From the NCBI GenBank assembly GCA_018806915.1, contig JAGKQI010000018.1:1-64000 (forward strand): a DNA stretch of 64,000 bases, given 5' to 3'. Position 1 is the stretch's first letter. The number at the start of each line of letters is the position of its first letter. Both the position numbers and the translations under genes were made by a program. The stretch comes from Phytophthora colocasiae. Its lineage: Eukaryota; Oomycota; Peronosporomycetes; Peronosporales; Peronosporaceae. A model generated the notes under the pieces. The model saw nothing but the letters and a program-made list of their open reading frames with translations, ran no database searches and had not been told where the DNA came from. This document shows positions 5,221-64,000 of this stretch, one piece after another.

Positions 5221-6797
5221 GTGTGTGAAAGCGGACGAAAAAATTTTCCCGGAGAGGCGAAAGTCAGCCAACGAACCCGAATAGAAGTCAGGAACAGAGC
5301 GACAGGGGGACCCTGTGATCGCCAGATCTGGGTCCTGAATCAGACAGAAGAGTACAGATGGGTCCTGCCGGGAACAGGCAACCGGGGAAGACACCAAGTA
5401 AGAAGCAGGTGGAGACGGTGTTTATTCGTGGGTGATCCGAATCACTGCCGTGGTGTTCGTGGGGTGATCCGAATCCTGCCGGAGGGGGGTGAAGAATGGA
5501 AATCAAAGGGATGTTCTCGCGCGATCAACGATGACGGGGCCCCAAGCGGAGAGTACATGATCAGCTTACCTCTGGCGCAGAAGCCTCTAACAGCACGATC
5601 CCCTTCCCCGGGCGGCGACGATGAGATCACGCATAAAGATCGCTGCAATGAATCCTCCTCCCGTATAAGTACAGAGATCAGCCCTCCGGATCAAGGTCAA
5701 CCCCAGGCGCGACGCGCAGACTCTTCTTGTGGCCGTTGATCCGGATTCTTTGAAGGATCACGGCAAGCAGGGACTTCAGTGCGGTGATCAGAAGTCCCGA
5801 TTAGAAGTATCGAGATCAAGCTCCGGTTAAGTTGGCAGAGGATCAAGCTTCGGTTAAGTGCGAGATCAAGCTTCGGTTAAGTGCGAGATCAGCTTCGGTT
5901 TAAGTGCGAGATCAAGCTTCGGTTAAGTACAGAGATCAAGCTTCGGTTAAGTGCACGAGATCAGCTTGCCCCTTCAGTTAAGTACGGAGATCGGCTTCAA
6001 GATCAGTGAGTTAGAGGAACCAAGCTAGGGATCAGACCAGCGTAGCCAGTGTCTCATGTGGTCGGTAGGATATTAAATCAGGATGGGATTAGTAGGCATA
6101 GGAATCGTAACCATGGCAAGCATGAACTCGAATTTGCCCCTGAAATCCACTCCAGAGTGTCTTCCTACATACCTGGAACCGGGAACTACATTACAGCCCT
6201 ACAAGCGTCAGGAAGGTAATTGAGATAAAGCGTGACCTAAGTATGGCGGTTCAAGAGCTCCTGGATAATATCATTGGCCAGCTTTGCCTCACATCTAGTG
6301 AACTATCCTTTTAAGTGCCATACATCGGATCAGGAAGGAATTGGTTGTTTAGCCTAGGATCCCGATCGAATCTCGCCCCCTCAAGAACCCCCGCTATCGG
6401 GGAAGCGGAAAACAACGAAAGGAAGGGACTGGATCCCGAACATTGGACTCATTGGAAGACCTGGATCAAGAACCAGGCACCCGGATGCAAGGCTCAGAGG
6501 AAACTCGCCTACGACCGGGACTCAAGTACCCCGAGGTGGAGTGAAGAACTTCCACGCCGCCTCAAACCCCTGCGTCACCCAAGAACCTTCTTCTCGTCCC
6601 AAGACATCTCTCAGAAGTTACCTGGAAGAAGCGTGAACCCGCCTACCGAGCGGGAGTACACAAGGTTACAGAACACTACACGCAACAAAGATCACGGATC
6701 ATCAGGGGACCCTCCGTTAGTCGGTGTCTGGGCGGCGAAGCCCACAGCGATCGCGATCGGCCCTCAACCAGATTTTGGCCAGATCCGCTCCACCACA
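5221..6797 (+). repeat. Element B 5' LTR
   Basis: Begins near TGTGTGAAAGCGG and ends CTCCACCACA, like the 3' LTR at 18081-19452. It is about 200 bp longer than the 3' copy because of scattered 1-3 base insertions and a longer minisatellite at about 5785-5990. Confidence 0.85.
5785..5990 (+). repeat. LTR minisatellite, B type
   Basis: Degenerate tandem copies of a 23-bp unit built on GATCAAGCTTCGGTTAAG. The same unit is clean in the 3' LTR (18602-18716) and in the A LTR (19713-19850). Confidence 0.85.
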
Positions 6798-18080: not shown

Positions 18081-19452
18081 TGTGGTGAAGCGGACGAGAA
18101 TTTTTCCCGGAGAGACAATATCAGCCACGAACCCGAATAGAGTCGGAACGAGCGACAGGGGGGACCTGTGATCCCCAGATCTGGGTCGAATCAGACGAAG
18201 GTACGATGGGTCCCGCCGGGGAACAGGCAACAGAGACACCGGCGGAGGAGCAAGTGGAGCGGTGTTCGTGGGTGATCCGAATCCTGCCGGAGGAAGAATG
18301 GGGGAATCAAGGAGGTTCTCGCGCGATCAACGATTACGGGGTCCTAAGTGAGCACGATCGGCTTACCCTGGCGCCCCGAAGCCTCTAACAGCACGATCCA
18401 ACTTCCCCGGGCGGCGACGAAGCGAGATCACGCAAGATCGCGCAATGATCCTCTCCCGTATAAGTACGAGATCAGCTCCGGATCAAGGTCAACCCCAGGC
18501 GCGACGCAGACTCTTCTTGTGGCCTGATCCGGATTCTTTGAAGGATCACCAAGCGGGATCAGGCAGTGATCAAGTCCCGATTAAGTACGAGATCAAGCTC
18601 CGAGATCAAGCTCCGGTTAAGTGCGAGATCAAGCTTCGGTTAAGTGCGAGATCAAGCTTCGGTTAAGTGCGAGATCAAGCTTCGGTTAAGTGCGAGATCA
18701 AGCTTCGGTTAAGTACGGAATCGGCTCAAGATCAGGGTTAGGGGAACCAAGCTAGGGATCAGCTATGTAGCCAGTGTCATGTGGTCGTAGGATAGTAAAT
18801 CAGGATGGGATTAGTAGGCATAGGAATAACCATAAACAGACTCGAATTTGCCCTGAACCACTCAAGTGTCTTCGCTACGACCGGGAACTACATTGGCCCT
18901 ACAAGCGTCAGGAAGGTAAGGATACGTGACCTAGTATAGCGGTTAAGTCTGGATAATATATTGGCCAGCTTTGCCCTATCTAGTGAACTATCCTTTAAGT
19001 GCATACATCGGATCAGGAAGGAATTGGTTGTTTAGCCTAAGGATCCCGTCGAATCTCGCCCTCAAGACCCCCGCTATCGGAAGCGGAAAACAACGAAAGG
19101 AAGGGACTGAATCCCGAACATTGGACTATTGGAAGACCTGGATCAAGAACCAGGCACCCGGATCAAGGCTCGAGAACTCGCCTACGACCGGGATCAAGTA
19201 CCCCGAGGTGGAGTGAAGAACTTCCACGCCGCCTCAAACCCCTGCGTCACCCAAGACCTTCTTCTCGTCCCAAGACATCTTCAGAAGTTACCTGGAAGAG
19301 CGTAACCCGCCTACCGACGGGTACACAAGGTGAACACTACACGCAACAAGATCACGGATCATCGGGGGACCCCCTCCGTTAGTCGGTGTCTGGGCGCAAG
19401 TGGCGATCGCGATCGGCCTCAACCGGATTTTGGCCAGATCCGCTCCACCACA
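18081..19452 (+). repeat. Element B 3' LTR
   Basis: 1372 bp, from TGTGGTGAAGCGG to CTCCACCACA, bounded by the polypurine tract and the AAGCT duplication. Contains a clean 23-bp minisatellite at 18602-18716. Confidence 0.92.
18602..18716 (+). repeat. 23-bp LTR minisatellite, five exact-length units
   Basis: Units of 23 bp begin at 18602, 18625, 18648, 18671 and 18694, each GAGATCAAGC(T/C)TCGG then TTAAGT(G/A)C. Degenerate units extend upstream to about 18568. Confidence 0.95.
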
Positions 19453-19457: not shown

Positions 19458-20299
19458 GGCCAATATATTATCCAGACTTAACCGCTATACTAGGTCACGT
19501 ATCCTTACCTTCCTGACGCTTGTAGGGCCAATGTAGTTCCCGGTTCCAGGCGTAGCGAAGACACTTGAGTGGTTCAGGGCAAATTCGAGTCTGTTTATGG
19601 TTATTCCTATGCCTACTAATCCCATCCTGATTTACTATCCTACGATCACATGACACTGGCTACATAGCTGATCCCTAGCTTGGTTCCCCTAACCCTGATC
19701 TTGAGCCGATTCCGTACTTAACCGAAGCTTGATCTCGTACTTAACCGAAGCTTGATCTCGTACTTAACCGAAGCTTGATCTCGTACTTAACCGAAGCTTG
19801 ATCTCGTACTTAACCGGGACTTGATCTCGCACTTAATCGGGACTTGATCTCGCACTTGATCGGGACTTGATCGCTCCCTGATCGGGGACTTGATCGCGCG
19901 TGATCCCGCTTGAGTCGTCCTCCAGGGAATCAGGATCAGAGCCAATGGGAGGGTCGCGAGCGCCGGGCTGGACCGTGAGTCAAGATCGTATCCACCTAGG
20001 ACCATGCCAAAGCCGATCACGTGGCAACACCCTTGCTCCTTCCTTCTTGCCACTCGATATGACTTGATTATTGTCAATCACCACTCCACTGCCACCGATT
20101 ACACTTGATTAACCGTGATATCCGCTCGCGAACCCGTGCCACAGTTAGCGAGCATCGATCCTTGCTCTTAGAGGCATAATGTAAGATCACCGGTCTCCGT
20201 TCACCATTCTCAGTCAATCTTCGCCGATCTTCACATCGCGTCGGCTAATTACACTTAGTTCGAGCTGATGATCTTCACTGACGTGAACTCCACCCCACA
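19458..20299 (-). repeat. Element A 5' LTR, outer (U3/R) part
   Basis: Reverse complement continues the A LTR from the B insertion point out to a TGTGGGG start at 20299. Its inner part is close to the B LTR and carries seven 23-bp minisatellite units (about 19713-19870). The outer roughly 400 bp do not match the start of the B or C LTRs, so this is a distinct U3 type. Confidence 0.8.
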
Positions 20300-38036: not shown

Positions 38037-39396
38037 TGTGGTGAAGCGCGAATAAGAAATCCGAGAAAAGGCAACGTCAGGCCCTAAGAGAGTCGGATCA
38101 AGCGACAGGGGCCTCTGGCGAAGCAAGATGTCAGTTGATGACCCCAGATTGCGCGAACGATGGCTGACGAATGGATCCAGATCGATGTTCGTCTGGATCT
38201 CGCCAGCGATGAATGGATGGCGTCTTGGTCAAGTGAGACTAAGTGATTGGAGAACCCGTCGTGCGGTCCCGCGTGGCGGCTCAGGGTCGGAGGAGAAAAG
38301 GGCGCCTTGCCTGAGGTCGCATGAGAAGGAGATCAAGGCGGCAGAGGGTCGAGATCGGTGTGATATATGGTGGGCCGGTGACAACATAACCGTGAGATGC
38401 TGCCGAGGGGACCTGATGGCAGTGTTAGTCGCGTGGGGAGTGGTGATCAAGTCTGGGAAGCTCAAGACCTGGAATGTCGACGACGCAGGCACGCGAGATC
38501 AAGTAGTGCTGATCGGGATCATTGTTCAAGACGGTGGACCAAGATCGATGACCGAGATGGTTGATCGAGATCGGCTGATCGCCAGATCGCCAGATCGCCA
38601 GATCGCCAGATCGCCAGATCGGCTGATCGCCAGATCGGCAGATCGAGATCGCGATCAGGGGTTAGGTGAGATCAAGATTGAAGATCGGAAGGGCAGCTGT
38701 GTAGCCGGATGTCAGGTAATCGTAGGATAGCAGATGAGGATGGGGCTAGTAGACATAGGAATAACCATAAACAGAATCGAATTTGCTCTGGACATCACAA
38801 GTGCCTTCGTTCAAGACCGGAACTGGGAATTACATTGGCCCCCCGGCATCAAGAAGGTAAGGAGAAGAGATCTAGCATAGAGGTTAATCCTGGATAATAC
38901 ATTGGCCAGTTTTACCCTATCTAGTGATCTATCCTTTACGTGCGAACTACGGATCGGAAGGAATTGGCTGCTTGGCCTGACGATCTCGTCGACTCTCAAC
39001 CTATCAAGACACCCGCTATAGGAAGCGGCAAGCATCGTAAAGGAAGGGATCAGATCCCCAACATTGGACCTTTGGAAGACCTGGATCGAAGACCAGGTGA
39101 CCGGATCAAGGCTCGAGAACTCGCCTGTGACCCGGATCAACCCCTCCGAGGTAGAGTGAAGTATTCCCACGCTATCTCACACCCCCTACGTCACCCAAGA
39201 CATTCTTCTCGTCCCAAGACATCTTCAGAAGTCACCTGGAAGAGCGTAACCCGCCTACCGACGGGTACACAAGGTGAACACTACACGCAGCAAGATCACG
39301 GATCATCGGGGGACCCCCTCCGTTAGTCGGTGTCTGGGCGCAAGTGGCGATCGCGATCGGCCTCAACCAGATTTTGGCCAGATCCGCTCCACCACA
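38037..39396 (+). repeat. Element C 3' LTR
   Basis: 1360 bp, preceded by TGGGGGCGGA and followed by CCTAC, then element D gag. It is close to identical to the 5' LTR apart from minisatellite copy number and scattered substitutions. Confidence 0.93.
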
Positions 39397-39651
39397 CCTA
39401 CGTGCTTCGGCACGTACGAGGTGTTCAAAGAGGAGCTCAAGCTTGCGTTTGAGCCCCCGAAGAACGAGTTCAGATCGAGAGCGGAGTTTCTCGATCTGCA
39501 GCAGGGCAAGGATGATGTTCACACCTTTGCCCAGCGTGCTCGATACTTGGTATCGAACATAGTGGCCAACCCGATCGACGAGGCGACCAAGGTCGTCACG
39601 TTCATGAAGGGACTAAGAGATGGTCCCGTCAAAACATATCTCTTCCGATAG
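39397..39651 (+). pseudogene. Element D gag, capsid fragment
   Basis: Frame beginning at the element C boundary with a Retrotrans_gag pattern (FKEELKLAFEPPKNEFRSRAEFL ... VHTFAQRARYLVSN ... VVTFMKGLRDGPVKTYLFR). It ends at TAG 39649-39651. The N-terminal part is missing from the window. Confidence 0.8.
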
Positions 39652-39756
39652 TATCCGAATACTCTCGAAGAGGCGATCAGCCTTGCGATGCAAGNGGAGT
39701 TTAGCCGACGTCAAGGCTAAACTCCATGCGAACAGCCGAAGCCGGCGCGTCCTGTT
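39652..39756 (+). pseudogene. Element D gag remnant with an ambiguous base
   Basis: Continuation of gag (EEAISLAMQ-like) after the stop. An N at 39695 marks an unresolved base in CAAGNGGAG. The frame is interrupted here. Confidence 0.5.
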
Positions 39757-40989
39757 GTGAAGACGGGAGGTCCGGAACCTATGGACCTCTCGAGTGCTAC
39801 GACTGCTGGTCAACAGCGGCGTAGGAACAGCGCGTTCGATGTTACAAGTGTAGTAACATCGGTCACTATGCACGCGAGTGCACAGCGGGCAGGCGTTCAA
39901 AAAACGCCAAGGACCAGTAGGCGCGGGCGTCCTACTGGTGATGCAATCTCGCGTGTCGAGCTTGGACACGCGACGATGAGGACTGCTGCCCCCAGCGAGA
40001 AAGTTTCTCGCTGTAAGCTGCAAGATGACAAGCCAAACCTTGTCATCCTGAACGTGATGTCGAAGAGAGTAAACTCTCTTCGTGCCCTAGTGGACTCGGG
40101 CGCGTCGAACAACTTTGTTCGACCAGGAAGTCTTCGAAGACTTGACTTCGACGAGGCCGACACGCCTCGCAGCGTGTTGGACGTGCGGTTGGCAACGGGT
40201 GCCACCGTGAGGACTGAGAAGCGCGTAGTCCGTGTGCACTTCTCTTACAAACGAAGGACGTTTGTAGAAGATCTTATCGTCTTGGATCTAGACGATAAGT
40301 TCGACTTGGTATTAGGCATGCCGTGGCTTGCACGGCATGACCCGGTGATCAACTGGGAGAAGCGTACGCTCGTACGCTTCAACAACACATGCGCGACAGA
40401 GAGCGATGGCCCTGTCAGTGCTGCACATGCACCAGGCGGTGCATGTGGATCCTCAGTTGAGGCAGCAGCGGCCGCCGCTGCCTCCGATCGCCGCCGGCGA
40501 CCGCCAGCGACTCAGGGAGTCGTTGGGAGAAAATGTGTGTCGACTCAGAAATCTGAGCCGAAGGGTCGCGGTCACATGAGTGATGGTCAGGTGAATGTGA
40601 GTCACCTGACGCATAAACATCTGAATGATGTTTGTCACATGAGTGATGGTCAGGTGAATCGCATTCACCTGAGAGAAGGTAAAATACCGGTATTACCGGT
40701 ATCCTTGGAGGTAGTTCAAGCCCCCAAGGGTCGCGCCGACGACGTCGCGTCAACTCTGGGAGTTGACGAAGCAAATAATATTCGGGGAACCGAAAGACGT
40801 GCGTCAGCTCTGGGAGCTGACGCCACTGGCGCTTCGCTGCTAGTTCCGGGAACTAGCGATCGGTCATCAGCTCCGGGAGCTGATGAGACGTGTATAGGCG
40901 AACAGTCGCTGCTAGTTCCGGGAACTAGCGATCGTACATCCGCTCTGGGAACGGATGATGGCAATGTGCTACAAGCGAACACTCGCTAG
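39757..40989 (+). CDS. Element D nucleocapsid, protease and start of linker
   Basis: A 410-codon frame. A C-X2-C-X4-H-X4-C knuckle is encoded at 39840-39881 but in another frame, so an indel precedes the protease. The protease motif ALVDSGASNNFVR (about residues 109-121) and the DLVLGMPWLARHDPVINW segment identify a gypsy retropepsin. After about residue 210 comes a low-complexity linker with repeated xPGxD peptide units; each is encoded by a self-complementary DNA segment (see findings). Confidence 0.82.
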   Translation: MKTGGPEPMDLSSATTAGQQRRRNSAFDVTSVVTSVTMHASAQRAGVQKTPRTSRRGRPTGDAISRVELGHATMRTAAPSEKVSRCKLQDDKPNLVILNVMSKRVNSLRALVDSGASNNFVRPGSLRRLDFDEADTPRSVLDVRLATGATVRTEKRVVRVHFSYKRRTFVEDLIVLDLDDKFDLVLGMPWLARHDPVINWEKRTLVRFNNTCATESDGPVSAAHAPGGACGSSVEAAAAAAASDRRRRPPATQGVVGRKCVSTQKSEPKGRGHMSDGQVNVSHLTHKHLNDVCHMSDGQVNRIHLREGKIPVLPVSLEVVQAPKGRADDVASTLGVDEANNIRGTERRASALGADATGASLLVPGTSDRSSAPGADETCIGEQSLLVPGTSDRTSALGTDDGNVLQANTR

Positions 40990-41354
40990 CGCAGGAAGCT
41001 GGCGAGGCACGTCGACTCCGGGAGTCGACGATGCGGTTGCTTCATCCGCTCCGGGAGCGGATGGAGCTGCAGCGGTTCAGGGAACCGACTTCGCGGCAGG
41101 AGGTGCTATGGCGGTTGCAAACGCCCAGCACCCGAACAACCTGCGTGCTCACGTGCAGCAGCGCTGCACGCGATGAGCGGCACTCAAGCCGGGCTTGATA
41201 GTGCGAGTCAGCGGAAGGAATCTGCTGACGATTGCGATAACGTCCCGTCCAAGGTGCGATGCCTTGGACGTGGAGCACCTGGAGCCGGGCTCCATGGTAG
41301 ACCTTCGCGGCGCAAGCTCAGGGAGCTGCGCGAGTCTCAGTCCGGGACTGAGAC
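40748..41354. repeat. Array of self-complementary units with a common CYGGG centre
   Basis: Units at 40748-40768, 40801-40823, 40839-40857, 40865-40885, 40911-40929, 40937-40957, 41010-41030, 41043-41063 and 41334-41354. Each has 6-10 bp perfectly paired arms around TGG, CGG or G. The arms differ between units but always match their own partner. In frame they encode S-A-P-G-A-D or L-V-P-G-T-S-type peptides. Confidence 0.9.
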
Positions 41355-41730
41355 GGGTGTATCTGCAGTGCAGACACCGAGTGTCGAGACGTTGAACGTC
41401 TTGACACGTACTGGTACTGGGTTACAGTACCAGAGGATGCGGTTGGAGAATCCGCCGACGAGTGCGTCGGCGTTGACCGCACTTCCAACGATGAGTTGGA
41501 AGCGCTTCGCGCGAGACGGTACGATGGACGCATCGAACAAATTTGCATTCTCTCGGATATCGAGAGAGTGGATCGCGAAGCCGAAGAGCTGGAAGCAGCT
41601 CGTCGTCGATGGGATCACTGAGGGTGATGACTCCTCAGTGCGAAGACTAAGAAGCAGCGCTTCCCGAAGAGCAGAGTTGGGACCTCGTTGAGGTCGAGTC
41701 CCTACTACGAAGTTCTGCGGGAGTACAAGG
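40990..41730 (+). pseudogene. Element D protease-RT linker
   Basis: Low-complexity linker in several frames (40955-41176, 41173-41691), continuing the palindromic units and then charged sequence. It joins the RT frame at about 41731. No catalytic motif. Confidence 0.6.
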
Positions 41731-42606
41731 ATGTACTCCGGACGAGATTCCTTCGAGCTTCCGAAGGACAAGGGCGTACAGCACGAGATTGATCTCGTGC
41801 CGGGCACGAAGTACTGTGTTACACGGCAGTGGCCACTGCCACGTGAACAAGTGCAAGCGATCGACGACTTCTTTGAAAGTCGTCGTCTTGCAGGTCAAGT
41901 GCGGGAGTCAAAGTCCCCGCACAGTGCTCCAACGTTCTGTGTGAAGAAACCACAGGGCGGCTGGCGCATCGTTCATGCGTATAACAAGCTGAACGATGCG
42001 ACGATACCGGCGCAGACGCCGATACCGCGAAAAGATGTTATCATCGATTCGATGGCCTTGAGCACTCTCTTCAGTGCTCTAGATCTGCGTGATGGATTCT
42101 ATCAAATCCTCATGCGTGAGAGGGACATCCCTCTCACAGCGGTAAGCACTCCAAGCGGTATGCTTTGGGAGTGGCTCGTCATGCCACAGGGGCTTAAGAA
42201 CGCCCCTGCGACGTTCAATAGATGCGTGACACATCTATTGCGCTCGGTGCGCGACTTCGCACCGAGCTACTTCGACGACGTGTTCGTCCACAGCCGGCCT
42301 GTGAACGGGAAGACGGACATTGAGATGCACAAGGTGCATCTCCGGAAGCTGCTAGAGCTTATGAGGAAACATAAGCTCTATGCGAACCTGAAGAAGTGTA
42401 TCTTCGGGGCGAGCGAGATACCCGTGCTGGGGTGTCTCGTGGGGAAAGACGGCGTGCGCCCTGACCCAGAGAAGGTCAGAGTGATCAATGAATGGCCCAC
42501 GCCATCCAATGTGAAGGAACTGAGGCAGTTCCTTCTTGCCACGTACTTGTGCAAGTACGTGGAGAACTATGCGGGCAAGATTCGATCCGTTGTCACAGCT
42601 TCTTAA
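41731..42606 (+). CDS. Element D reverse transcriptase
   Basis: A 291-codon frame. Fingers: HEIDLVPGTKYCVTRQWPLP and SPHSAPTFCVKKPQGGWRIVHAYNKLN. Motif A: FSALDLRDGFYQI. Motif B: MPQGLKNAPATFNRCV. Catalytic box YFDDVFVHS. Thumb and connection: LGCLVGKDGVRPDPEKV and LRQFLLATYLCKYVENYAGKIR. It ends prematurely at TAA 42604-42606 after a frameshift; the expected QLLKKEAEW continues in the next frame. Ten or more perfect hairpins of 5-10 bp lie in its second half. Confidence 0.92.
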   Translation: MYSGRDSFELPKDKGVQHEIDLVPGTKYCVTRQWPLPREQVQAIDDFFESRRLAGQVRESKSPHSAPTFCVKKPQGGWRIVHAYNKLNDATIPAQTPIPRKDVIIDSMALSTLFSALDLRDGFYQILMRERDIPLTAVSTPSGMLWEWLVMPQGLKNAPATFNRCVTHLLRSVRDFAPSYFDDVFVHSRPVNGKTDIEMHKVHLRKLLELMRKHKLYANLKKCIFGASEIPVLGCLVGKDGVRPDPEKVRVINEWPTPSNVKELRQFLLATYLCKYVENYAGKIRSVVTAS

Positions 42607-43370
42607 GAAAGAAGCTGAGTGGATTTGGACGACCGGAGTGCGAGGAGGCATTCGGTGCAGTCAAGCAGGGCTTGACTGAAGCGCCGATCTTGGCCGTGGC
42701 GGACCAAGATCGTCCATTCCACGTAGTGTGCGATGCATCCGACTTTGCAATCGGATGTGCATTGATGCAACACGATCACGAAGGGCGTGATCGTGTAGTC
42801 TACTATCAATCGCGTCAGCTGAAGCCAGTTGAGCGTAACTATCCCGTACATGACAAGGAGCTCCTTGCCATGAAGTATGCACTCGCAAAGTTCCGAGTGT
42901 ATCTACTTGGGAGTAGACCGTTCGTGGTCTATACAGACCACGCATCATTGCGTACGGCGATTAAGTTGCCGCACATCTCGCAACGTATGGCGAGATGGTT
43001 GTCCTTCTTCGCGGAGTACAACTTCCGGGTGGAGTACAAACCCGGAAGACTCAATGTAGTGGCCGACGCGCTATCGCGTCGACCTTACTATGCGGAGACG
43101 GTCGACGCCAACGCTGTTGGCGTCGTGAGGACAGTGCCGTCGTCAACGTTGATTGACGACGTGAAGAACGCGGATGCAAGGGATGCAGACGCGAAGGGGC
43201 TGCTGGAGTTCCTCGCAGCACCTTCCGACGTGGCACGTCGGAAGCTAACCCCTCATCTTCGAGCTCGTGTACACCGCTATCGTGTACACGAAGGCCTACT
43301 GTTGTACAGTGCAGTAGACGACAATGCGGATCGCGCATTGTCGTTCCGAATGATCATGACCTCCGGTTGA
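42596..43370 (+). CDS. Element D RNase H and start of integrase
   Basis: Part of a frame open from 42492; the meaningful sequence starts about 42600 after the RT shift. RNase H: VVCDASDFAIGCALMQHD (Asp), VHDKELLAMKYAL (Glu), VYTDHASLRTAI (Asp) and NVVADALSRRP. It then runs into the inter-domain region before integrase and ends at 43370. No second RNase H of the B/C type is present. Confidence 0.88.
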
Positions 43371-44395
43371 GGATCATGTTCGAGTATCACGATGCCCCCA
43401 CAGCAGGGCATCCGGGTCGTGAGAAGACATACACTCTTCTCACGCGTGACTTCTACTGGCACCACCAGTACAAGTGGGTGCGCAAGTACGTACGTGCTTG
43501 CGAGGTTTGTCAACGCGTGAAGCCTGCGCAGTTCTCGCAGGCTCCTCTTCAATCACTACCGACTCCGTCGGAGTGTTGGCAGTCCATGTCCATGGACTTT
43601 GTCTTCGGTCTTTCGCCTGACAGCAAGCGGAGGACGGGCATCGTTGTCTTTGTGGACCGATTCAGCAAGATGGTTCATCTTGCTGCCGTCCCGGCTACTG
43701 TTACAGCCGCGCAGACTGCGCGACTGTTTGTTGACATGGTGTTCAAACACCATGGCATGCCGCTCGACATTGTGTCGGACCGTGATCCACGCTTCACAGC
43801 GCGGTTCTGGTAAGAAGTGTTTACACTTCTTGGCTCACAATTATCAATGTCGACTGCGGATCATCCGCAGACGGACGGGCAGACCGAACGTGTCAACCGT
43901 GTACTGGGTGACACGTTGAAGAGCTACGCTCACTCGTTCCCGCATTGGAGCGAGTGCTTGCCGATGGCAGAGTTTGCCATCAACAACTCGGTGCATGCCT
44001 CGACAGGGCATACACCGTTCTACGTGAACGCCATGAGGCATCCACGATTGCCGAGCATGCTCGGCGGGGTAGCTTCCTCCTTAAGTGGGGGAGGATCTAC
44101 GGTTGCGTCCGAACAACCGCAGAATGCAACTGATAGCAGCACACTATCAGCTGCGGTGACGCGTGCGACGTCTCGTTCGAGCAGGAACGAGCGCGCGATG
44201 TCTGTGCCGGGCACAGACATGAGAGATGATAGCGAGCAGGCAGGGCCTGCTGCTGACAAGGGCGACAAGCTGAAAGGATTCAGCTCGGGTGCGCTATACT
44301 TTGTCCAGCGAAGACAAGCCGTCATACGGTTTGTCCAGGATGCTATCGCAGCTTCTGTCGATCGACAGAAACTGAACGCTGATACTGTTGGTTGA
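43367..44395 (+). pseudogene. Element D integrase, with an in-frame stop
   Basis: HHCC zinc domain (YHDAPTAGHPGREKT ... CEVCQRVK), core with SMDFVFGLS (Asp), DIVSDRDPRFTARFW (Asp), then TAA at 43811-43813, then in the same frame EVFTLLGSQLSMSTADHPQTDGQTERVNRVL (Glu). Apart from this single stop (CAA to TAA would explain it) the core is continuous to AFAINNSVHAS-type sequence and beyond. Confidence 0.88.
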
Positions 44396-44425
44396 GGCAA
44401 CACAAACGAAAAGGGTTCATTAGTT

Positions 44426-45078
44426 TTGTTAGCTACACAAAACCTACCTAGACATGCAGTGTCTGACTTTGGAGCAAGCAAGCTTGCTCGAAGATTCATT
44501 GGGCCGTTCAAAGTACTTGAACGGCACGGCAACGCGTACCGGCTGGACATACCGTCCAGCATGAGGCTCCACCCGACCTTCTACGTCGGGCGGTTGAAGC
44601 CGTACGTGCAGCACGGACTACCTAGGGTTGGTAGTCCGACTGAGGAGTGCGAGAGGCCTGGAAGGCCTTCTCGAGACCGTCGAGACGGTCGACCAACCGG
44701 CTCACTCTCGTCCCAAGACCGGACGAGAGGTTCGAAGCAGTCTGAGTGCCTCACAGACCTCAGCACGGAGGACACGAACTTCCTGCTTCAGAGCCGCTAT
44801 CTCAGCGCTCTGTGTCTGCTCCAGCGCAGCAACTCGATCGTGCAGGGCACGATCGTCATGGTCATAGCGGTGACCATACGAAGGGAGTGTTCCCGCCCCC
44901 TCCGCCGCCGTTGCGCGACGCGCGTGGAGCGATCCGCTGGATTGTTGAGCGGATCGTGGCTCATAAGAGAACGAACTCTCAAGGGGTTCGTTTTCGTATT
45001 CGTTGGAGAGGATTTCCTCCCCATCGAGATACATGGGAGCCGCGGAACGTCCTGATGGAGGACGTTCGGAAATGGTGA
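44426..45078 (+). CDS. Element D integrase C-terminus and chromodomain
   Basis: The GPF/Y-type segment (ARRFIGPFKVLERHGNAYRLDIP ... HPTFYVGRLKPYV) is in the frame starting 44426. The chromodomain is in the overlapping frame ending at 45078: IRWIVERIVAHKRTNSQGVRFRIRWRGFPPHRDTWEP, with the aromatic positions expected for methyl-lysine binding. A frameshift lies between them at about 44740-44890. The 3' end overlaps the antisense frame. Confidence 0.85.
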
Positions 45079-46167
45079 GGGCGTACGAAGCCCACCATAA
45101 CTTGCAGGGGTAAGCCCTGCACGAGGAGTGCTGCGGTCAGCCACAGCACTCGGAGCTTCGCGTGGCACAATACGACCACGGAGCTCCTTGATGTGATCGG
45201 GTACACGGACGACCGTGTACCCCAGGAGATCACTTTCGGTGAGGCGTGTTGCCAAGGGTGGGCAACACGGACAGGGTGTGCCAAAGGGAACGGCACATGG
45301 GATCCCCGCTTCCATGGACTGATCATGGAGGCGTTCACACTTACCACGCGTAGTGTAAGTGTAGTAGCGATCGCGAGCCGCAGCAACGCGATCGCGATAT
45401 GCCTTCGGGTCTTTGTTGAAGTTATCAACAAAGGCGTTCCACGACTGACAAAGTGCCTGCCACTCGGGCACTTTACTCTTGCGCGAAGTCTTCTTCGCTG
45501 CATAGTATCGGAGCTCGTGGAAGAGCCCGATATAGTAGTCGCGTCTTTGAGTCTCGGACTCAAAGACAACCTTAGCGGCGACGTCGTCGTCGTTGATACT
45601 GTTGCATGAGTACAACAGTATCGGGTTCGGTGGTGAACTAGCACCGAACCGGTCATGGATTTCTGCCTCAGTAGGCATCCATGGTGTGCGCACTGGCGGA
45701 TCAGTGCGCGGGGCAGTGAGCGCCCTCGACATGGGGGACGCTTCATCATCACTGCGCGGACGCTTCGAGCTTGAAGCGTCCGAGGCCTCATCACGAGGTC
45801 GTCGAGATCCCACGGGTGGGTCTGACGTGTCTTCGGACGAAGACACGGGAGCGGGAGCCTTGACATCAACCTCCCCCTCCTCGACATCCTCCTCGTAGTC
45901 GAGGATGTCTTCGTAGTCCTCTCCAAAGAGTTCTTTGAGAGGGACAGCAGGATTCTTAATCTCTGCTAGAGAAGAAGAAGAAGTCTTCTTCTCATGCTTC
46001 TTCTTATGGAGAGCATAATACTTGGTGACAGAGAGCTTCTCTGTCGGACCGCTGGAAGCAGTAGTGCTAGTGGGCACTGCTGAGGTCGTTGTTCCTGCTG
46101 CAGAGGCAGCAGGTGAGGCTTGCGCGTCCGCAGTAGCGGACGGAGACGTGGGCGTTGGCGAGTCCAT
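44797..46167 (-). CDS. Element D antisense frame, acidic protein of unknown function
   Basis: A 456-codon open frame on the opposite strand from pol, starting 46167 about 100 bp inside the 3' LTR. Ser/Thr/Ala-rich N-terminus, a Lys-rich segment, an acidic region (EDYEDILDYEEDVEEGEVD), an NLS-like SSKRPRSD, then a folded-looking region of about 150 residues (TPWMPTEAEIHDRF ... YYIGLFHELRYYAAKK ... CPCCPP). It overlaps the chromodomain by about 280 bp. Same position and orientation as the antisense frames of B and C, although the sequence is different. I do not recognise a family. Confidence 0.65.
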   Translation of the reverse strand: MDSPTPTSPSATADAQASPAASAAGTTTSAVPTSTTASSGPTEKLSVTKYYALHKKKHEKKTSSSSLAEIKNPAVPLKELFGEDYEDILDYEEDVEEGEVDVKAPAPVSSSEDTSDPPVGSRRPRDEASDASSSKRPRSDDEASPMSRALTAPRTDPPVRTPWMPTEAEIHDRFGASSPPNPILLYSCNSINDDDVAAKVVFESETQRRDYYIGLFHELRYYAAKKTSRKSKVPEWQALCQSWNAFVDNFNKDPKAYRDRVAAARDRYYTYTTRGKCERLHDQSMEAGIPCAVPFGTPCPCCPPLATRLTESDLLGYTVVRVPDHIKELRGRIVPREAPSAVADRSTPRAGLTPASYGGLRTPSPFPNVLHQDVPRLPCISMGRKSSPTNTKTNPLRVRSLMSHDPLNNPADRSTRVAQRRRRGREHSLRMVTAMTMTIVPCTIELLRWSRHRALR

Positions 46168-46268
46168 TGCGAAATGAACTCGGGTTTCTCTTGGGAACTT
46201 GACGGTCTTGTCAAGTTCTGTTGATTGACGTATCGAGACCGATACGTCGAATCTTAACGGGGGGATGG

Positions 46269-46728
46269 TGTAACGGGGTTACACGTACAAGTGGTTGTAC
46301 CACTTGTAACTCTAACAGTTAGGATAACTGTTAGAGGTTGGAAATGGGCCTCAGACCTTGGTGTGCTGTACACACCAATGGATACATGGGCGAACCACAT
46401 TATTGGGTGGTTCGTGTGCATTTATGCATATTATTGGTAGAAAGTAACGGATTTCTACCAATCACTGAGCAGAGTTTCTGCCAACCACACGTTGGCAGAC
46501 CCTTTAGAAATAGATAACAAACAGTTTTAGGAGGTCCATAATTGGCTTATGCCAAATTCAATAACAGTTCTCATTTTACGGTAATTTGCAGTTTAATTTA
46601 GTTATATTTGATTTAATTATACTTATTTAAATAAGTATACTTAAATTAAGTCTATTCTAATTGCACGCTTCCTCATACACGTAAGCGCACGTGTACGCCA
46701 CCTAATAGGTCTAGGTAGACCCATTACA
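46269..46728 (+). repeat. Element D 3' LTR
   Basis: Starts TGTAACGGGG after the polypurine tract. I end it at CCATTACA, because TGTAA/TTACA form matching ends and the downstream frame becomes open at exactly this point. About 460 bp. It holds at least six perfect hairpins with 8-11 bp stems. The 5' LTR is outside the window, so the right boundary is unconfirmed. Confidence 0.7.
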
Positions 46729-62710: not shown

Positions 62711-64000
62711 TAGTCTTTAGCTGTCACTTGCTTCGGAGATTGATGGAGAATTCAACTCAATTCCGAAATGAGTGACGGATATTTCACCGCTCGCGACGTG
62801 AAGGGCGCGACTGAAGTTCTCGTAGGAGCAGAAAGCGTCAATCAGATAGGTCATGCTTTGATGGATGGAGAGAGACTGCCCGCTGGGCTCGTTTGAACAC
62901 TTGATCAACCCTTAACGGCAACATGACGGGGAGATGCAAAGGTAAACGACATGAACGCCGTCGTCTTTTGCCTCTGCTGCTCAACGGGAAATAGCAAGTG
63001 AGACGAGCCGCATTTTGACACCAAGACGCTCTTGAGCTGTTCGAAGACAAGCCGCCGTGCTTTTCCCCGAAGCAGACAAAATCCACCGACCGAAGTGTGG
63101 GTGCGAACGTGCCTGGATCGCCCTTGCCCTGATTCGCAAGCGAGACTCGCGCTTTGCTCAAGCGCCTTGGTGAGCCTTACGGTAAGACTCTTGCCCGTCA
63201 GGGATTCACGGTCCGTGAATCCCTGACGTGAATCACGGACGGTGAGCGCGGCTGCGGAGATCTTGCCCTTGGTGGCACAGTCAAGCCATTGCACTGCAAT
63301 TTGCAGACCAGTGGCGGCCGATTACGAGCTGCGGGATACTCTTCTTGACCAGCGTGTTCATGCGCAAAGCTGGTCGCGGCCGTAGCTGTCTCAAAAAGAG
63401 CATAATGCCGATCTCCTTCGCCTGATAGTCGCCAACCACACATTATTATTGCCAAGCAACCTTTATCTACATTTTCAGTGGAGTCGATCGACTCAAGTGG
63501 CAAGTTAGCGACCAGCATTGCAAGGCGGCGATCGGCGAGCATTGAAGTGCCTGCTGTGGCTTCCCCGCACAAAATGGACACCGATTAAATTCCGCTGTCA
63601 TAGCATAACTTTGAAACTCCTCTACCTAATGAACTTGCATAATAGCATACTTATGGACTTTCGTCAAAAATATACTTCCTATTTAAACAGACCTACGAAA
63701 CAGCACGCTTACGATCCGCGCTCTAGCAGCCGTTATCCGGCGCCATCATCGTGCGACAGTCAGTTCAGATGAGCTTTCGTGCACACCAATTTGAAACGTC
63801 TCGGTTTCAGATAACCTTTCAAAGTAGATTGCAACATGTATCATCTTTGTGTATGCAAACCATGCTTTTTCACTTCAGCCTGCTAAACTCATTCTTTATC
63901 AAACGTTGTATTTTTCCGCCTGTCTCTGCAGCGGTTTAGGCTGGATTTTGCCAGCTGTTTGCTGGGTACTGGTACCTTGTACCATTCACCCTCGTTCTCG
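62711..64000. other. Intergenic region, no convincing gene
   Basis: Short frames only (up to 129 codons) with no recognisable domain on either strand. A 31-base palindrome lies at 63197-63227. The last 400 bases are more A/T-rich. Confidence 0.5.
63197..63227. repeat. 31-base near-perfect palindrome
   Basis: The 15-base arm GTCAGGGATTCACGG is followed by one T and its exact complement CCGTGAATCCCTGAC. A partial third copy (CGTGAATCACGGAC) follows directly. Confidence 0.95.

Follow-up and report, generated by a model that had tools for sequence, protein, structure and literature searches.

Short perfect hairpins along a predicted Ty3/gypsy retrotransposon of Phytophthora colocasiae

What could fill the genome of a mobile element with short perfect hairpins, in sequence that also encodes its proteins, and what would keep them there? 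This question is raised by element D (positions 39397-46728) of the 64-kb window analysed here (contig JAGKQI010000018.1 of P. colocasiae assembly GCA_018806915.1, positions 1 to 64,000). Judged by its protein domains and its long terminal repeat (LTR), D is a Ty3/gypsy LTR retrotransposon of an oomycete lineage. A preliminary description of the sequence held that D is saturated with hairpins in coding and noncoding regions. This observation is real and is stronger than first stated.

Hairpin density and the coding sequence

Stems were counted if they were perfect over at least 8 bp and enclosed a loop of 2-10 bases. D contains 95 such stems, against a mean of 0.92 and a maximum of 4 in 60 dinucleotide shuffles, and 71 stems of at least 9 bp (mean 0.25 and maximum 2 in the same shuffles). 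The whole window has 109 stems of at least 8 bp, about 14 of which lie outside D. The length spectrum in D peaks at 9 bp (39 stems of 9 bp, 24 of 10 bp, 7 of 11 bp and one of 12 bp) with none longer than 12 bp, and the loops are mostly no longer than about 10 bases. All 14 hairpins named in the preliminary description are found where it placed them, as perfect stems of 9-12 bp (Table 1), although several are longer than it reported (for example 42353-42380 and 42539-42562, both 11 bp, and 46310-46336, 12 bp). Its chance estimate of about 0.02 stems per 557 bases is consistent with the shuffles, in which 7.3 kb yields on average 0.25 stems of 9 bp or more.

A sister copy of D, L054, retains an intact frame of 1717 codons, in which 59 stems reach 9 bp or more. 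Codon-preserving shuffles of this open reading frame (ORF) abolish the excess (n = 100; mean 0.61, maximum 3), which supports the earlier proposal that synonymous choice is bent to self-complementarity. Shuffles preserving both codons and dinucleotides, set beforehand as a possible refutation, also fail to match the observed count (n = 40; mean 0.98, maximum 4). The amino acid identity of D to other families is 0.62 and 0.65 in stems, 0.69 outside them and 0.58 in loops. Because identity in stems is only slightly below that outside, the stems appear to be fitted largely around the protein, and the best explanation is that the hairpins are overlaid on the coding sequence through synonymous and conservative changes.

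Stems are seen in all 30 four-kb loci from the same genome (the window being one of the 30), with 36-58 perfect stems in each, so the pattern is not confined to one copy. The comparison with other elements of the window, also proposed in the preliminary description, sets D apart: five of them have stem counts near expectation, and elements E and C fall inside the range of their own codon-type shuffles. A compositional, low-complexity or assembly artefact has a negligible probability and was rejected on these grounds, together with the failure of dinucleotide, codon and codon-plus-dinucleotide shuffles.

Stem length by lineage and constraint at silent sites

All nucleotide-level comparisons of the D clade were made within one genome. 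A stem excess is present in the ORFs of all five families tested, and typical stem length is lineage-specific within this host: 5-6 bp in families Z and W, at least 7 bp in X, V and U, and 9 bp in D. As stem length tracks element lineage in a single host, it is probably a property of a machine encoded by the element (reverse transcriptase [RT] or Gag/nucleocapsid) rather than by the host. At one locus (L044; G000:C48:1395500-1402500), a Z-type element in antisense orientation lies next to where the V-like element U begins, and the hairpin regime switches at this boundary from 5-6 bp to 7 bp or more.

The stems of D are under constraint at silent sites. Among 39 copies, shared variants occur at 5 of 195 four-fold-degenerate sites in stems, 56 of 481 outside them and 9 of 32 in loops, and several comparisons put the depletion of silent variants in stems at 4.5- to 14-fold. 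In a degraded D copy the comparison between stems and outside sites gave no difference, and in families X, W and Z constraint in stems was not shown. The scarcity of silent stem changes in the best-sampled lineage suggests that the folded shape itself matters.

Origin and maintenance of the hairpins

The proposed model is as follows. Hairpins, each with a perfect Watson-Crick stem and a loop of up to about 10 bases, are strewn over the whole element genome in this oomycete Ty3/gypsy clade. Their action would fall in a single-stranded phase of the element, either genomic RNA or, perhaps with greater likelihood, complementary DNA. A strand folded on itself would be shielded from nucleases and from annealing to small or antisense RNAs or to other copies. 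Template switching during reverse transcription would complete the stems, sometimes repair them, and flip the loops. The explanation favoured here, with middling confidence, is that purifying selection preserves local Watson-Crick hairpins in a stage of the element that is single-stranded, and that template switching may have built them. A more specific form is offered tentatively. It is a heritable rule of at least N contiguous Watson-Crick pairs and a loop of up to about 10 bases, with N set by lineage (5, 6, 7 or 9), occurring dozens of times across the LTR and coding sequence and read in single-stranded DNA by an element-encoded protein (RT or nucleocapsid) as a dispersed signal for self-recognition or protection. 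We know of no described packaging or structure signal that resembles such a rule.

Alternatively, the hairpins may be functionless by-products of an element RT that switches template in imperfect palindromes, so that one arm is rewritten from the other across a stretch whose length is specific to the enzyme. The strict Watson-Crick pairing, the lineage-specific arm length and, in D, the random spacing and absence of codon-phase preference are all in keeping with such an origin, and template switching has been described as a source of perfect stems and of inverted loops, the latter being its footprint (available text of PMC8794818). Inverted loops do segregate: CGC and GCG are found in 14 and 15 copies, one three-base loop occurs as GCT, AGC, GCA and TGC, an AA/TT inversion occurs as well, and 3 of the 18 loop alleles with at least two differences are exact inversions of another allele (39-copy set). 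Flips with at least two changed bases, however, are visible at only 3 of 54 hairpins, which by our estimate makes them rarer than expected point mutations and too rare to maintain the stems alone. Copying of arm onto arm should also leave changes in both arms, and few segregate. Among 140 changed cells in established D stems, 1 is a both-arm change, 60 are G.T and 79 are otherwise broken; two stems have both-arm changes in the 39-copy set. One linker hairpin, missed by both of these counts, has two segregating forms whose arms both differ; the variant form is carried by about nine copies and matches a neighbouring tandem unit. The compensatory substitutions that the preliminary description proposed to look for are present between families (in same-centre stems) and between tandem units, but their total is not above partner-shift controls. 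Every one of the 23 stem gains among D copies restores a single missing pair; no gain of several pairs in one lineage was seen among them, which also weighs against a purely mutational account. The inverted loops, together with the both-arm changes between families and tandem units, lend partial support to the earlier suggestion of template switching. Switching occurs at D hairpins, but its frequency looks too low to keep them up. For D, selection therefore seems to be required, and the depletion of silent stem variants likewise makes a pure by-product doubtful.

Selection could instead act on the sense genomic RNA, with ordered structure at genome scale serving packaging, stability or escape from small RNAs. 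Such selection would tolerate G.U where A.C is not tolerated, and in single-stranded DNA G.T is hardly better than A.C. Some counts lean in the direction expected of RNA: shared stem variants in D (13 G.T, 9 A.C and 8 other among 39 copies; 7, 4 and 3 in another count) and internal mismatches in W (5 G.T and 2 A.C). Mismatches that close the loop lean the same way in W (23 to 12) and in Z (20 to 13), but not in D (8 to 15). Internal stem mismatches in D are balanced (10 G.T, 12 A.C), and A.C exceeds G.T between families, both in all cells (321 vs 258) and in retained stems (39 vs 24). If A.C is counted as a pair, the stem number also rises further above shuffles than if G.T is so counted, in five of five families (10 shuffles each). 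On balance, a preference for G.U over A.C was not found across D and the family comparisons, which disfavours a purely sense-RNA role. The region 42061-42617 has a strong folding excess as RNA (z = -8.6, relative to dinucleotide shuffles only) and as minus-strand DNA (z = -14.4). No Rfam family matches at gathering score. Constraint at silent sites in D would also be expected from a role in RNA, and some small RNAs of P. infestans derive from retrotransposon loci (available text of PMC3804510). Host silencing is nevertheless hard to square with stem lengths that differ within one host. Single-stranded DNA, or both strands, seems the best fit as the folding molecule, and sense RNA as the sole target is unlikely. 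Of the earlier suggestion of selection for RNA structure, selection for structure is upheld in D by the silent-site depletion, and the restriction to sense RNA is not.

A search of the available literature found no description of hairpin-saturated retroelements of this kind, and we know of no gypsy element described as saturated with perfect hairpins. D is similar to Ty3/gypsy (Metaviridae) elements in its LTR and its order of protease, RT, RNase H and integrase, whereas hairpin saturation is lacking in E and A, which are gypsy-like elements of the window too. The genome-scale ordered RNA structure of RNA viruses is a coding-wide folding excess that survives codon-preserving shuffles and is accompanied by silent-site constraint. 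D shares these features, in its case as an excess of hairpin counts, but its hairpins are mostly simple and perfect, their loops reach up to about 10 bases, G.U is not consistently preferred, and stem length depends on the lineage. Template-switch hairpins, as presented in the available text of PMC8794818, have perfect stems, inverted loops and multi-base changes in both arms. The first two are seen in D as well, and both-arm changes are present in its clade, though in total not above controls. The published cases are RNA genes such as microRNAs and rRNA, unlike the protein-coding elements of the D clade, which are saturated with hairpins and favour a particular arm length; all gains caught in D were of a single pair. 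The genomic RNA of yeast Ty3 is likewise most structured within or close to the RT-coding region, but its well-folded core is about 19% of the RNA and is not an array of perfect hairpins (available text of PMC11381356).

If the favoured model is correct, the coding sequence of a mobile element carries a second layer of information, which follows a quantitative rule that differs among lineages in one genome. Two old questions could then be tested in a single system, namely what share of the silent sequence of a retroelement is subject to selection for structure, and whether RTs can write and maintain hairpins. Silent-site clocks for hairpin-bearing elements may be biased.

Architecture of element D and other features of the window

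The Pfam matches along D follow the order protease, RT, RNase H, integrase and Tf2-1-like SH3 domain, with broken frames (Table 1). The RT matches proteins of Phytophthora cinnamomi and P. ramorum at 92% identity, and Peronospora, Peronosclerospora and Pythium are also represented among the best 120 of 1678 homologues. A 1-kb piece of the RT region has at least 40 scored matches in the same genome (92.5 Mb), itself included, the others being 97-99% identical. The LTR has TG...CA ends, and at least 40 scored matches (again including itself) reach the LTR end at 99-100% identity. These copy counts are lower bounds, as scores were given to the best candidates only.

Table 1. Features of element D, with positions in the window
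Feature	Position	Strand	Evidence
Element D, 5'-truncated, frames broken, hairpins along whole length	39397-46728	+	Hairpin counts, Pfam matches, RT-region copies
Aspartyl protease domain (RVP_2)	40075-40371	+	Pfam E-value 3.7e-08
Protease-to-RT linker, hairpin array with ..CTC-NGG-GAG.. cores, partly 69-72-base tandem units	40513-41067	+	Sequence; units read in copy L054
Reverse transcriptase domain (RVT_1)	41941-42435	+	Pfam E-value 1e-26
Hairpin, stem 10 bp, loop 2	42116-42137	+	Sequence
Hairpin, stem 9 bp, loop 7	42216-42240	+	Sequence
Hairpin, stem 10 bp, loop 6	42242-42267	+	Sequence
Hairpin, stem 9 bp, loop 3	42322-42342	+	Sequence
Hairpin, stem 11 bp, loop 6	42353-42380	+	Sequence
Hairpin, stem 10 bp, loop 3	42513-42535	+	Sequence
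Hairpin, stem 11 bp, loop 2	42539-42562	+	Sequence
Hairpin, stem 9 bp, loop 4	42596-42617	+	Sequence
RNase H domain	42702-43019	+	Pfam E-value 6.7e-35
Hairpin in RNase H, stem 11 bp, loop 5	42770-42796	+	Sequence
Integrase zinc-binding domain (H2C2)	43352-43525	+	Pfam E-value 2.9e-21
Hairpin in integrase H2C2 region, stem 10 bp, loop 7	43418-43444	+	Sequence
Integrase core (rve)	43580-43804	+	Pfam E-value 1.8e-07, 31.8 bits; slightly below gathering score of 32.6
Tf2-1-like SH3 domain, integrase C-terminus	44414-44608	+	Pfam E-value 2e-15
Hairpin, stem 9 bp, loop 5	45411-45433	+	Sequence
Hairpin, stem 11 bp, loop 3	45543-45567	+	Sequence
3' LTR, TGTAA...TTACA, non-coding, also with hairpins	46269-46728	+	Sequence and copy matches
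LTR hairpin, stem 12 bp, loop 3	46310-46336	+	Sequence
LTR hairpin, stem 11 bp, loop 8	46433-46462	+	Sequence

In the linker of D and at positions 2559-2756 of L054, the hairpins differ between the tandem units yet are mostly perfect. The 5' end of D is adjoined by a repeat (39183-39402) that has two further copies in the window (at 19239 and 21490; 95-96% identical), so D was apparently cut off by another element. An antisense open frame of 493 codons (minus strand, 44797-46278), which has no Pfam match, crosses the hairpin-rich 3' region.

Elsewhere in the window, a 23-base repeat, GATCAAGCTTCGGTTAAGTGCGA, and its complement form arrays at 5818-5956, 18581-18765 and 19685-19891. The longest stem found in the window is an isolated perfect hairpin of 15 bp with a loop of 3 bases (63196-63228), which lies outside D.
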